DNA from: Sphingobacteriaceae bacterium
GTDB taxonomy: Bacteria > Bacteroidota > Bacteroidia > Sphingobacteriales > Sphingobacteriaceae
DNA length: 64,000 nt
NCBI GenBank assembly: GCA_029266635.1
Contig: JAQSWM010000005.1
Coordinates: 62,001-126,000 of the forward strand
Reading direction: 5' to 3'
Made by a program: the position numbers and the translations under genes. The notes below the pieces were generated by a model. That model was not told where the DNA came from and did no database searches. It was given only the letters and a program-made list of their open reading frames with translations. Within the stretch, counting starts at the first letter, position 1; each line of letters starts with the position of its first letter. Below are positions 25,346-37,334 of this stretch, piece by piece.

Positions 25346-25407
25346 GCTGTGGGTTGTGAGTTATGAGTTCCGGGATCGCCCGTAACCAACAACCCTCAAC
25401 CCACAAC
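25346..25407. repeat. Long imperfect inverted repeat between rpsB and tsf (GTTGTGGGTTG type)
   Basis: Arms of about 29 bp (25346-25374 and 25379-25407) match at roughly 22 of 29 positions when one is reverse-complemented, and close on a 4-nt loop beside GGG/CCC. The arms are built from GTGGGTTGTGAGTT and CAACCCTCAACCCACAAC words. Similar words occur in the helicase gene (33861-33957) and near 55015-55092. In the rpsB-tsf mRNA it would fold as a strong hairpin. No T-run follows. Confidence 0.7.
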
Positions 25408-31960: not shown

Positions 31961-34504
31961 CTACATCTGCTCGTAGCGTGCGGTCATTTTTGCCACCCGC
32001 TCTTCCATCGATTCGGTGGTTATCCGCTCCCTTCCCAGCCGGTCAACCATAATTGGGAAGGAGAATGGCGTGGGGCGTTCGCTCGACGTTATTATTATCT
32101 TGAGGTTTTGGATACGTTGCAAAGATGCTCTCAACCTGTATTCTTCCAACTGAAATTGCAAAGCCTCCTGATAAGCCTGCCGCACCAGCACATTGTCTTT
32201 TTCGTATTCACTGAACACCTCGAACAGAAGCGAGGTTGAAGCCTGAAGATGTTTGTTCTTCATGCCCTTTCCGGGGAAGCCGGTAAATATCAGCCCGGCG
32301 ATGTGTGCGATGTCCCTGAACCGCCGCCTTGCCATTTCATTCGCATTTAAGCTATGCTGAATATCTTCAAGCAGATTATCTATGCTAAACAAATCATTTG
32401 CAATGGCTTCTTCGAGCGGCATTTCTTCATCAGTGAGCAGCTCAAAGCCGTAGTCATTCATTGCTATCGAAAACGTTGAGCGTTTGATCTTTGAAATGCG
32501 ATAAGCAAAGAGGGAAGCCATCCCTTCATGGACCAGTCTTCCATCAAATGGATAGAAGTAGAGATGATGGCCATCCCGCGAGGTGAACTTTTCAATCAGG
32601 AATTCGTCCTGCATGGGCAGGTGCGAGAGCTCTGCCTGCAGATCGAACAAGGGGCGGAGGGTACGTACTTCAATGTCCTCCTCAACTCCCATCGCCACTT
32701 CGTCAAGCTTTACCCGGAACATAGCCGAAAGCTGCGACGAGAGCGGCATCCGCCCACCCATCCAGCTTGGAATTTGCCCTTTCAGCTTTCCCGACTTCCG
32801 CACGTAAGCCGTCATGTCTTTAATCTTTACAAGTTCAAGCGGCCGGCCCGCAAACCAGAAAGTATCTCCAACTTTTAGCCGTGAAATAAATGATTCCTCA
32901 ATAGTGCCGAGGAAACCGCCGCTCATGAACTTAATACGGATGTTTACGTCGCTTACAATCGTTCCCATCGTGAGCCTGTGGCGCATGGCAACGCGACGGC
33001 TGTTAACTTTATAAACTCCATTTTCAATTTCCACTTTGAGGAATTCGTCATAAGCGGAGAGCGTTTTGCCTCCTTTCGTGATAAACTCTAGGATCTGGTT
33101 GTAGTCCTTACGTTCCAAATCCGCGTAGGCGTAGGTGGTTTTAAGCTCTTCGAAAATTTCGTCCGGCCTAAAGCCGTCAGAGACCGCAAGCGTAACGAGG
33201 TATTGCATCAGCACATCCATGGCAAGTAGGATCGGGTCGCGGCTCTCGAAAACCTCTTCTTTGATGGCTTGCTTCAGGGCAGCTCCCTCCAGAAGTTCAA
33301 GCGAATGCGTTGGGACAAACCACGCTTTTGAAGTTGCGCCGGGATGATGGCCGCTTCGCCCCGCCCGCTGCATAAAGCGTGCAACGCCTTTGGGGCTGCC
33401 AATCTGGATCACCGTGTCCACCGGCCTGAAATCCACCCCAAGGTCAAGGCTTGAAGTGCAGACAACCAGCCTCAGCATTTCATTATGCAGAGCCTCCTCA
33501 ACCCAGCTCCGCAACTCATTATCAAGCGAACCGTGGTGCATTGCCATCACGCCCGCATATTCCGGATACTTATCCAAAATTGCCATGTACCAGATCTCAG
33601 ACTGAGATCGTGTGTTTGTGAAAATAAGTGTGGTTTTGCTTTTGGCGACGATCTCCATCACCTCGGGTAAAAGCTTGATCCCAAGGTGCCCCGCCCATGA
33701 GAATTTCTCAATATTCTCGGGGATGATGGATTCGATGACGAGCTTTTTCTCCAGGTTAGCCCGGATGAGCTTTATCTTTTCAGGAGGATAGCTGTTGCCG
33801 AGAAGAACTTCCGCGGCTTGTTCAAGATTGCCGATGGTTGCTGAAATGCCCCAGATGCGTAGTGTTGTGGGTTGCGGGGTGTGAGTATTGGGTTGGGAGT
33901 TGTGGGTTGCGAGTTGGGAGCCTTGGCTTTCCGCTTTCCGCTCTTCGCTTTCCGCTAACAACGCTTTCAGCCGAGACAATCCCAGCTCCAACTGGACTCC
34001 TCGCTTAGTACCCAAAAGCTCATGCCATTCATCCGCAACTACAAGATCCAGCTTTTCAAAAAGCTTTGGGTAGTCTTTAGTGGCGAGCATGAGGTGCAGG
34101 CTTTCTGGCGTTGTGAGTAGAACCTGGGGGAGATTTTTCTTCAAGTCCTGTTTTTCCTTTGCCGGTGTGTCGCCAGTACGGGAAGCAATCTTCCACGGAA
34201 TTTCCAGATCATCCACAACAGTTTGCATCGCTTTGCGGATATCATTTGTGAGCGCCCGCAGCGGTGTGATCCAAAGCATCCTCAACCCTTTACTCTGGAC
34301 AGTTTTATAATCTTCAGGATGGCTGTTAATGTACGATGCAACAAAGGGCAGAAAGAGAGCGAAGGTTTTGCCGCTGCCAGTTGGAGCGTTCAATAATCCG
34401 GAGAAGCCATGTAAATAAGCCTCTTCCATCTCTTTTTGAAAAGGAAACTGCTCCCACCTTTTTGTGCGGAACCACTCAGATATTACTTCCTGGCCTTTGG
34501 TCAT
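31961..34504 (-). CDS. Ligase-associated DNA damage response DEXH-box helicase (Lhr-like)
   Basis: This 847-residue SF2 helicase has a Q-motif region, Walker A LLNAPTGSGKTFALFLPF, TTPESLHLML, a DEWH box (VVADEWHELLG), WGISATIGNLEQ (motif III), RLVVCTSSLDLGVDFRPVD and motif VI FMQRAGRSGHHPG, then the Lhr-type winged-helix/core C-terminus. It matches the ligase-associated family that works with an ATP-dependent DNA ligase, an exonuclease and PdeM phosphoesterase; none of these are in the window. The ATG at 34504 is chosen over a TTG 11 codons upstream that lies in a terminator. Residues about 183-215 are a low-complexity insert (see repeat). Confidence 0.92.
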   Translation of the reverse strand: MTKGQEVISEWFRTKRWEQFPFQKEMEEAYLHGFSGLLNAPTGSGKTFALFLPFVASYINSHPEDYKTVQSKGLRMLWITPLRALTNDIRKAMQTVVDDLEIPWKIASRTGDTPAKEKQDLKKNLPQVLLTTPESLHLMLATKDYPKLFEKLDLVVADEWHELLGTKRGVQLELGLSRLKALLAESEERKAESQGSQLATHNSQPNTHTPQPTTLRIWGISATIGNLEQAAEVLLGNSYPPEKIKLIRANLEKKLVIESIIPENIEKFSWAGHLGIKLLPEVMEIVAKSKTTLIFTNTRSQSEIWYMAILDKYPEYAGVMAMHHGSLDNELRSWVEEALHNEMLRLVVCTSSLDLGVDFRPVDTVIQIGSPKGVARFMQRAGRSGHHPGATSKAWFVPTHSLELLEGAALKQAIKEEVFESRDPILLAMDVLMQYLVTLAVSDGFRPDEIFEELKTTYAYADLERKDYNQILEFITKGGKTLSAYDEFLKVEIENGVYKVNSRRVAMRHRLTMGTIVSDVNIRIKFMSGGFLGTIEESFISRLKVGDTFWFAGRPLELVKIKDMTAYVRKSGKLKGQIPSWMGGRMPLSSQLSAMFRVKLDEVAMGVEEDIEVRTLRPLFDLQAELSHLPMQDEFLIEKFTSRDGHHLYFYPFDGRLVHEGMASLFAYRISKIKRSTFSIAMNDYGFELLTDEEMPLEEAIANDLFSIDNLLEDIQHSLNANEMARRRFRDIAHIAGLIFTGFPGKGMKNKHLQASTSLLFEVFSEYEKDNVLVRQAYQEALQFQLEEYRLRASLQRIQNLKIIITSSERPTPFSFPIMVDRLGRERITTESMEERVAKMTARYEQM
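33861..33957 (-). repeat. In-frame low-complexity insert in the helicase gene
   Basis: On the coding strand this reads as repeated GCGGAAAGC units followed by CAACTCGCAACCCACAACTC-like words. It encodes a hydrophilic stretch (SEERKAESQGSQLATHNSQP onward) between the DEWH box and the SATIG motif, where the helicase core normally has a short loop. The CAACCCACAAC words are shared with the intergenic repeat at 25346-25407 and resemble those at 55015-55092. Confidence 0.7.
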
Positions 34505-34513
34505 CTTAAACAA

Positions 34514-34543
34514 AAAACCCGGAATGAATTTAATCAAACCGGG
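34514..34543 (-). terminator. Terminator after the beta-barrel gene
   Basis: On the minus strand ACCCGG pairs with CCGGGT around a loop of about 17 nt and is followed by TTTTTTG. It lies about 26 bp after the stop of the gene at 34569 and just before the helicase start, separating the two units. The stem is only 6 bp with a large loop. Confidence 0.55.
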
Positions 34544-35612: not shown

Positions 35613-37334
35613 ATGATGATGAAGCGCAAACTCGTTTCCCTGAAAAAAGTTGTTTTGGTTGGTTGCCTGATTGTGGCCGGGGGCTCTTTTGCTTTCCGCG
35701 ATGATCTGTTTCAGGTATCTAAAAACCTGGAGATATTCACCTCAGTATTCAAGGAACTGAACATAAACTACGTGGATGAGATCAACTCGTCCAAGTTCAT
35801 GAAAACCGGTATCGATGCTATGCTTGACGGTTTGGACCCGTACACAGAATTTGTGCCAGAATCAGACATTGAGGATTACCGAATGAAGTACGTGAGCACG
35901 CAGTACGGCGGAGTAGGAGCAACAATCTTTAATCGTGATGGAAGAGTATTTGTATCTGAGCCTTACCAGGGATTCCCGGCTGCAAAAGCTGATGTGCGGG
36001 CTGGCGATGAAATAATTTCCATCAACGGCATTTCGCTTAAGGGAAAAACGAACGATCAGGTTAGCCTGCTGCTGAAAGGCCCGAAAGGCACTCCGATCAA
36101 ACTGGTTCTGGGACGAGTTGGCGAGGCTAAACCTGTAGAAAAAAACCTGGTCCGCGAGGAGATAGTTCAGGTAAATGTTCCGTATTACGGGATGCTGGAG
36201 AATAACATTGGCTATATTAAGTTGGATAAATTTCTGGAGAATTCAGCTCAGGAGGTAAAGGATGCTTTGGTCGAGTTAAGGAAAAGCAACCCAACCGGTA
36301 TTGTGCTGGATCTAAGAAATAATGGCGGCGGCATCCTGCAGGAATCTGTTAAAATTGTGAACCTTTTTGTTCCAAAAGATGTGAAGGTTGTTATGCAGAA
36401 AGGGCGCAACGCAGAAAAAACCGTCACATATAAAACCTTTGCTGATCCGATTGAGCCTAATTTGCCGCTGGTGGTTTTGGTAAACAACCGTTCTGCATCG
36501 GCATCTGAAATTGTTGCCGGGTCTTTACAGGATCTGGACCGGGCTGTGATCATTGGTCAGCGGAGTTATGGAAAGGGGCTTGTGCAGCAAACGTTCAACC
36601 TGCCTTACAATAGCTTAGTTAAGCTGACAGTTGCTAAATATTACACACCGTCGGGCAGGTGCATACAGGCGCTTGATTATACTCATCGTACTGCGGAAGG
36701 CAATGTTATAAAGGTTGCTGATTCTCTGATTACCGAATATAAAACTAAAGATGGACGTTCGGTTTATGACGGCAGCGGGATTTTCCCGGACATGTTTGTC
36801 AAGCCTGTAGAATACAGTCCCATCACAAAAACACTGGCTGCAAAATCATTCATTTTCGATTACGCTACAAAGTATCGAAACTCAAAGCCAACCATCACTG
36901 ATCCGAAGAAGTTTAGCTTAAGCGATACTGAGTATGCAGATTTTGTGAATTATCTATCCGACAAAGACTATAACTACAGCACCCGTACAGAAAAACTGCT
37001 AAACGACCTGAAAGTTGAAGCCGAAAAGGACAAAAAGCTGAATGATATCAAAGCTGAGTACGATGCGTTGAAAAGCAAGGTATCCTACAGCAAGAAAAAG
37101 GATTTAACGCAATTTAAAGACGAAATAAAACAGGTGTTAGAATCCGAAATTGTATCCAGGTACTATTTTCAAAAAGGTCGCACTGAGTATAGCTTTAAAA
37201 ACGACGACGAGATCAGGGGAGCTTATAAAGTTATAGCAGACAAGTCTATGCTGGCGTCTATCTTAAAAGGCGAGGGCAGCTATAAAACCATTGGTAAGCC
37301 GGGGCAGGATTTTACTGCGAGTGCGGGGAAGTAA
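35613..37334 (+). CDS. S41-family C-terminal processing peptidase (CtpA-like)
   Basis: This 573-residue periplasmic protease starts with a signal-anchor segment (VVLVGCLIVAGGSFAF, about 13-28), followed by a PDZ domain (about 85-180; VGATIFNRDGRVFVSEPYQG) and a tail-specific protease domain. The catalytic Ser is in NNRSASASEIVAG and the Lys in RSYGKGLVQQTF. A helical C-terminal extension (about 440-560) is rich in Lys and Asp. It cuts proteins from the C-terminus. The first of three tandem ATGs (35613) is used, though the later two are equally possible. It is followed by a bidirectional terminator. Confidence 0.94.
   Translation: MMMKRKLVSLKKVVLVGCLIVAGGSFAFRDDLFQVSKNLEIFTSVFKELNINYVDEINSSKFMKTGIDAMLDGLDPYTEFVPESDIEDYRMKYVSTQYGGVGATIFNRDGRVFVSEPYQGFPAAKADVRAGDEIISINGISLKGKTNDQVSLLLKGPKGTPIKLVLGRVGEAKPVEKNLVREEIVQVNVPYYGMLENNIGYIKLDKFLENSAQEVKDALVELRKSNPTGIVLDLRNNGGGILQESVKIVNLFVPKDVKVVMQKGRNAEKTVTYKTFADPIEPNLPLVVLVNNRSASASEIVAGSLQDLDRAVIIGQRSYGKGLVQQTFNLPYNSLVKLTVAKYYTPSGRCIQALDYTHRTAEGNVIKVADSLITEYKTKDGRSVYDGSGIFPDMFVKPVEYSPITKTLAAKSFIFDYATKYRNSKPTITDPKKFSLSDTEYADFVNYLSDKDYNYSTRTEKLLNDLKVEAEKDKKLNDIKAEYDALKSKVSYSKKKDLTQFKDEIKQVLESEIVSRYYFQKGRTEYSFKNDDEIRGAYKVIADKSMLASILKGEGSYKTIGKPGQDFTASAGK

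Follow-up and report, generated by a model that had tools for sequence, protein, structure and literature searches.

Heptanucleotide-repeat arrays of changing class at one in-frame loop of a DEXH box helicase in a Sphingobacteriaceae bacterium and its relatives

We report that the gene for a helicase of the DNA damage response in a Sphingobacteriaceae bacterium (genome G000 below) carries, within its reading frame, an array of heptanucleotide repeats, and that the same loop in related helicases is occupied by arrays of other repeat classes. The period of these arrays is seven nucleotides, they are nearly absent outside a single helicase clade, their class has changed repeatedly at this one point, and the frame is open in the parsed loci. 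We posit, with a probability of roughly 55%, that the insert belongs to the heptanucleotide-repeat arrays which these Bacteroidota carry preferentially in their intergenic gaps, and that it arises and is rewritten in place. The loop looks like a site where heptamer repeats keep growing and being replaced while the protein remains unbroken. Throughout, the window is the whole stretch of 64,000 nucleotides that was analysed.

The array and its host gene

The features concerned, in window coordinates, are:

31961-34537, minus strand: 858-codon ORF that harbours the insert and codes for an Lhr-like, ligase-associated DNA damage response DEXH box helicase (TIGR04121)
33861-33957, minus strand: in-frame heptamer array at approximately residues 194-226 of the ORF, supported by TRF, lag-7 runs, the loop comparison and the structural model
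33926-33956, minus strand: purine-rich half of the array, (GCGGAAA)-like units x4, coding for a charged stretch modelled as a continuation of helix 177-205
33864-33920, minus strand: CAACYCN half of the array, coding for a Q/T/N/P-rich segment with very low model confidence
25346-25407, no strand assigned: hairpin of the rpsB-tsf gap formed by an inverted pair of related heptamers, a comparison feature outside the helicase, recognized by its CAACCCACAAC match and its fold

In a profile search, the product of the host ORF scores 1081.3 bits against the curated TIGR04121 cut-off of 850, and it displays the Lhr-type set of DEAD, Helicase_C, WH_Lhr and DEAD_assoc domains. In its AlphaFold model (mean pLDDT 77.4; 31 sequences), the helix after motif II is prolonged to residue 205 (helix 177-205) and the strand of motif III follows the loop; residues 204-223, ahead of that strand, have a pLDDT below 50, as do seven further stretches of the model. 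The sequence-only reading had described the enzyme as essential-looking, a description for which we find no support: a strong match (E 1e-100 or better) was recovered from 49 of 100 genomes, the own genome counted, and the helicase therefore looks dispensable in the group.

Read on the minus strand, the insert consists of four (GCGGAAA)-like units followed by about seven (CAACYCN)-like units, and is situated inside the open frame between the DEWH and SATIG motifs. TRF reports periods of 7 and 14 at this position, and the only lag-7 runs scoring at least 12 in the 64 kb window are 33864-33920 and 33926-33956, with a score of 16 each against a top score of 12 in 60 simulated Markov-1 windows. 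Together with the 858-codon frame, these results uphold the earlier placement of a repeat run in the coding frame at the DEWH-SATIG loop. The accompanying claim that its length preserves the frame also held: the loop measures 105 nt here, and in L079, which of all array-free rows is nearest on the tree presented below, it measures 30 nt; the reading frame is therefore kept. The further claim, that the words of the insert are shared with intergenic DNA of the window, stands for one word and not for the other. With at most one mismatch, CAACCCACAAC has 6 sites in the window versus 0.89 expected, 2 of them inside the insert, and is encountered again in the rpsB-tsf gap; GCGGAAAGC has 5 sites versus 0.83 expected, 3 of them inside the insert, but its other sites, at 35691 and 51076, fall within ORFs. 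The RNA of the insert stretch folds no better than its shuffles (z 0.13; 106 of 200 as good). The insert is likewise non-palindromic, 32 of 60 shuffles being equally good, and hence hairpin switching is not visible in the window's copy.

One loop across the helicase clade

Loops were obtained from 104 of 110 helicase loci, L204 being excluded on account of a stop and L087, L197, L223, L236 and L242 being unparsed; as an open frame was required for parsing, the intact frames are partly a selection effect. L204, which comes from a metagenome-assembled genome, has an AGCTTTT-type array in its loop with an in-frame stop that breaks the helicase frame. Seven loci identical over the compared stretch were removed before the tree and the periodicity counts, and both L182 and L212, which have the same loop, were kept. 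The helicase clade comprises 62 loci with 61 different loops, mostly from Mucilaginibacter, Pedobacter, Daejeonella and Arcticibacter. It is a clade of helicases and not a family of organisms: L082, L083, L084, L088 and L089, which are among the 35 loci outside it, belong to the window's own family and are only 54-58% identical.

In 39 of the 62 clade loci, the lag-7 periodicity exceeds that of all 200 shuffles (40 of the 62 when the test was repeated), with lags 4-6 and 8-11 doing so in 0-1 of the same loci. Outside the clade, arrays are present in 2 of 35 loci (L235 and L243), a count that the repeated test also gave, and the loop is 18 nt long in 25 of the 35. Clade loops range from 30 to 618 nt, 13 of the 62 being just 30-54 nt. 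Large length variation is confined to this site of the helicase, which follows the post-motif-II helix and precedes the motif III strand, and reaches up to 199 residues in the clade as against 12 at the next site. These results support a reading in which the in-frame DNA is particular to a lineage, occupies a tolerant loop and is mostly missing from helicases outside the clade. Protein-level conservation of the segment in distant homologs, which had been named as the contrary evidence, was sought in the relatives and not found, and the loop comparison across helicase loci rules out the segment as a conserved part of the protein.

An ordinary fast-evolving linker, whose period would be a by-product of amino acid composition, might account for the variability of the loop and for the very low confidence of its model, but it is scarcely credible for a period of 7 nt, which is no multiple of 3, when lag 7 alone stands out. 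Selection of the array for a function in RNA or protein, such as translation pausing, an mRNA hairpin or an adaptive linker, would be in keeping with the high occupancy of the clade (39/62) and with the recurrence, by eye, of inverted repeats of changing sequence in the rpsB-tsf gap. Nevertheless, we consider such a function improbable, as 13 of the 62 clade loops are of only 30-54 nt, the window's mRNA stretch folds like its shuffles, and the encoded peptides differ among the classes.

Four heptamer classes were named by eye: A, for CAACTGC; B, for AGACTTN; C, for CAACYCN; and D, for CCCGAACC. A quick tree of 72 rows, from which the loop was left out, was marked with these four and with three further labels ('none', 'other' and DUF559). 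With these by-eye labels, the 72 rows require 28 changes for all seven labels (43.1 on average after shuffling, with none of 200 shuffles reaching so few), and the tree still needs 28 when the doubtful label D of L181 is changed or removed. Taken singly, class A requires 11 changes, 10 of them forced by starred branches, and class B requires 9, with 8 so forced; A versus B alone requires 9 across 28 rows. Relative to shuffled labels, class A shows no clustering beyond chance (99 of 500 as low) and class B is clustered (0 of 500). The heptamer class differs between close relatives and has thus been replaced repeatedly at one site, in the manner of the Nostoc P6b stem-loop discussed below. The classes intergrade in some loops (e.g., L072 and L186), and so one label may pass into another by degrees.

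In L216 and L217, the same helicase loop houses a DUF559 (PF04480) cassette with GAGAGGG-type palindromes. Its presence amounts to wholesale replacement, in that L216, with the cassette, and L177, with an array, are 88% identical in nucleotides across the next 1200 nt. The DUF559 nuclease ORFs of L216, L217 and L253 are flanked by short palindromes of the GGAGAGGG or CCCCCTAAAGGGGG type and are in frame with the neighbouring gene; that of L253 directly precedes, in frame, what we take from its peptide to be a hisF-like sequence. These palindrome-framed ORFs are a possible family of mobile cassettes.

Among 48 different loops of 60-320 nt (the own loop, L235 and L243 included), 30 are inverted beyond all 60 shuffles. 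The arms within one locus match no better than arms across species, the own arm being the best in 7 of the 48 loops, and templating of arms within a locus is hence inseparable from the sharing of classes. The inverted loops, along with the palindrome-flanked DUF559 cassettes in the loops of L216 and L217, could be taken to suggest that a transposable palindromic element (REP/RAYT-type, a MITE or one like the Rickettsia palindromic elements) lands in the loop, with the heptamers as its degenerate form. We give this little credence: by eye, the loops have no common ends, length or consensus, the window's insert is non-palindromic, and no CAAC-class lag-7 run (score of at least 11) is found in approximately 2 kb around seven Y1_Tnp matches of G000. 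The arrangement of REP/RAYT systems, namely repeats flanking a Y1 transposase gene, was not found around these seven matches, several of which are weak and perhaps not true RAYTs, and a RAYT link is unsupported there. One GGAAAGA-like run is located near Y1_Tnp matches, in L272, and a 14-nt match near the Y1_Tnp match on C16 is at chance level (E 3.81). Two RAYT-like genes of G000 (L268 and L270) adjoin short palindromes unlike the heptamers.

Heptamers across the genomes and the origin of the array

A sample of 1.6 Mb, consisting of 400 kb of G000 and 100 kb from each of 12 relatives, yielded 38 lag-7 segments, 10 in G000 and 28 in the relatives, compared with at most 4 at each of the control lags from 3 to 15 except lag 14, which gave 19. 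By an ORF mask under which the intergenic share is about 13%, 34 of the 38 arrays are intergenic. At least one array was observed in 9 of the 13 sampled genomes, and none in the samples of G001, G043, G095 and G038. These repeats are STRR-like in their 7-nt tandem unit and in their many copies per genome with an intergenic preference.

In line with the sequence-only reading, the repeat class of the insert occurs elsewhere in its genome: the class C pattern has 58 matches in G000 versus 7 for a reversed control. Among 31 genomes, with the own copy excluded and kinship ignored, enrichment of a loop's own class outside the helicase has a p of 0.024 for A, 0.022 for B and 0.095 for C. G114, the genome of L191, contains 295 class C matches as against 38 for the control, many more than any of the other 30 genomes, and the L191 loop is of class D.

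Two loci outside the helicase are of particular interest. The rpsB-tsf gap forms a strong hairpin (fold z-score -7.56), and many of the orthologous gaps from 30 genomes, own included (L321-L350), contain, by eye, inverted repeats of changing sequence, with heptameric arms in some gaps (L321, L328) and palindromes of unrelated sequence in other gaps (L325, L345). In hisS of G000 (L103 14356-14390), a heptamer array occupies a segment of 37 residues, which is its usual length (counted on the sequence directly, several hisS loci being left out of the comparison); weaker periodicity is seen there in two relatives, L282 and L291. As the array adds no length, an insertion in hisS is ruled out. Elsewhere, the arrays at 2151-2202 and 4446-4475 of L107 each stand just ahead of a gene, both presumably ATP-synthase-like from their peptides, and at L100 6375-6516 there is a 169-codon open frame made up largely of a repeated xNYE/SLE peptide.

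A less probable alternative, in keeping with the spread proposed by the sequence-only reading, is that the loop received a copy of some other heptamer array in its genome by gene conversion, microhomology template switching or insertion. With the insert as a query in 100 genomes (the first 9 candidates being scored in several of these), the best non-self match among those listed is in G000 itself (63.5 bits, to the CAACYCN half); this result, the excess of class C in G000 and the greater abundance of classes A and B in those genomes whose loops carry them (p ~0.02 each, under the same exclusion of the own copy and disregard of kinship) all argue for copying. On the other hand, the next-best genome among the matches listed is of another genus (G036, 54.5 bits, CAACYCN half), followed by G020 (48.2 bits, GCGGAAA half). 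Within the GCGGAAA half, GCGGAAAGCGGAAAGC is matched exactly nowhere else in G000, and at two mismatches it has 7 further places there versus 4 for the reversed control. Agreement in the order of the units is weak, being equalled in 52 and 30 of 2000 shuffles (p ~0.015-0.026), and the C8 array was not retained as a donor on this weak support. Moreover, the phase of class B arrays continues into the border codons. The suggestion of repeat spread is weak: it draws strength from the best listed match lying in the own genome, and loses it to the weak unit order, the GCGGAAA half with no other exact match in G000 and the continuity of phase in class B.

We favor growth in place over copying since the phase of the class B array enters the border codons and the hisS array changed no length. 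At the class B border, the Leu codon is CTN in 14 of 14 loops versus 5 of 13 array-free loops (p 0.0006), and the variable left codon is GTC in 7 of 14 versus 0 of 25 class A and array-free loops (p 0.0002), both tests having been picked after viewing the sequences, ignoring shared ancestry and being clear for class B only. This continuity is better fitted by growth in place than by spread, and the lack of a second exact GCGGAAAGCGGAAAGC in G000 is counted on the same side, as are the 30 inverted loops, the low model confidence at residues 204-223 and the stop-bearing array of L204. Counted on the other are the non-palindromic insert of the window, the lack of better-matched arms within a locus, the further low-confidence stretches of the model, the tracking of genome-wide class abundance by the loop class, the best listed match in the own genome, the wholesale replacement between L216 and L177, and the nearest relative, G001, whose loop is class-C-like but whose 100 kb sample is free of arrays, with only 3 class C matches versus 6 for the control.

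Under growth in place, the array would arise by 7-nt slippage during replication, seeding on, and then spreading into, the gene's own codons, and hairpin-mediated template switching would copy arms and their neighbours. Purifying selection would retain only the stop-free and frame-preserving outcomes, the peptide probably having no required sequence. The repeat 'dialects' of genomes would stem either from a mutational bias common to the loci or from one locus being copied to another now and then. A rule of a 4-nt core with three variable bases was also considered: a first test gave 31 of 47 arrays at p <0.05 but counted variant units twice, and a stricter one gave 12 of 43 (Fisher 1.7e-5), with the window's array at p 0.5 and the arrays sharing descent. 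We do not rely on this rule.

Relation to known repeats and significance

Among the longer simple repeats, heptamers are described as outnumbering all others in many bacterial genomes, slippage linked to the polymerase active-site footprint being only proposed, as a hypothesis cited for the G-rich heptamers of Xanthomonas and Nostoc (PMC4679880, PMC4692102). Those G-rich repeats resemble ours in lying between the same genes with extensive variation of length and sequence, and in being inverted in some cases (PMC4692102). In Nostoc, the trnL (tRNA-Leu UAA) intron has a P6b stem-loop with heptanucleotide repeats of the classes TDNGATT and NNTGAGT, which shares with the present arrays a degenerate 7-nt unit, a stem-loop arrangement and the repeated turnover of classes at a single site; unlike that RNA intron stem, the loop studied here is in-frame and protein-coding, has other unit sequences and, in the window's copy, no stem (PMC4476775). 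Two complementary arms of the P6b kind are absent from the own insert, given the 32 of 60 shuffles as good, and present in 30 of the 48 loops from relatives and own. Direct repeats of the heptamer TAACTGA, reported from Beggiatoaceae, Cyanobacteria and five Bacteroidetes (MacGregor 2015), likewise have a 7-nt unit, an intergenic preference and some copies in ORFs, and their indels between two Cyanothece strains are mostly in 7-nt steps (PMC4679880). In contrast to our arrays, TAACTGA is one fixed heptamer whose forward repeats have stops in all frames, and its ORF copies are mostly at protein ends and not in a central loop between helicase motifs (PMC4679880).

The Rickettsia palindromic elements offer a parallel for in-frame repeat DNA tolerated within proteins, but constitute families of ~150-bp elements, whereas no fixed element is present here (PMC10969869, PMC6649704); a palindromic, family-wide sequence was not found across the loops. 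The tandem repeats of archaeal Borg elements are similarly reported to make disordered protein segments when within genes, and differ in host, unit and context (PMC9879509).

Published work on cyanobacteria, Xanthomonas, Beggiatoaceae and several Bacteroidetes already covers the heptamer class as such, its bias towards intergenic DNA, its inverted copies and the replacement of classes at one site (PMC4679880, PMC4692102, PMC4476775). The units found here, CAACYCN and GCGGAAA, do not match those described there (TAACTGA, the Nostoc classes and GGGAATC). Among the titles and opening lines of abstracts in the open-access literature, we found no account of heptamer arrays as in-frame, class-switching inserts in the loop of a conserved enzyme.

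A bolder proposition, which we rate as rather unlikely, is that some active process of the Bacteroidota, a polymerase or repair system with a 7-nt register, writes and rewrites DNA in 7-nt steps, with the loop as its in-gene recorder; if so, the loop of each lineage would show the repeat dialect then written, as passed by a stop-codon filter. More generally, heptamer repeats can create new, probably disordered, protein segments. One loop, with differing frame-constrained arrays in dozens of species, provides a comparative system in which slippage in place, copying between loci and dedicated machinery can be set against one another.
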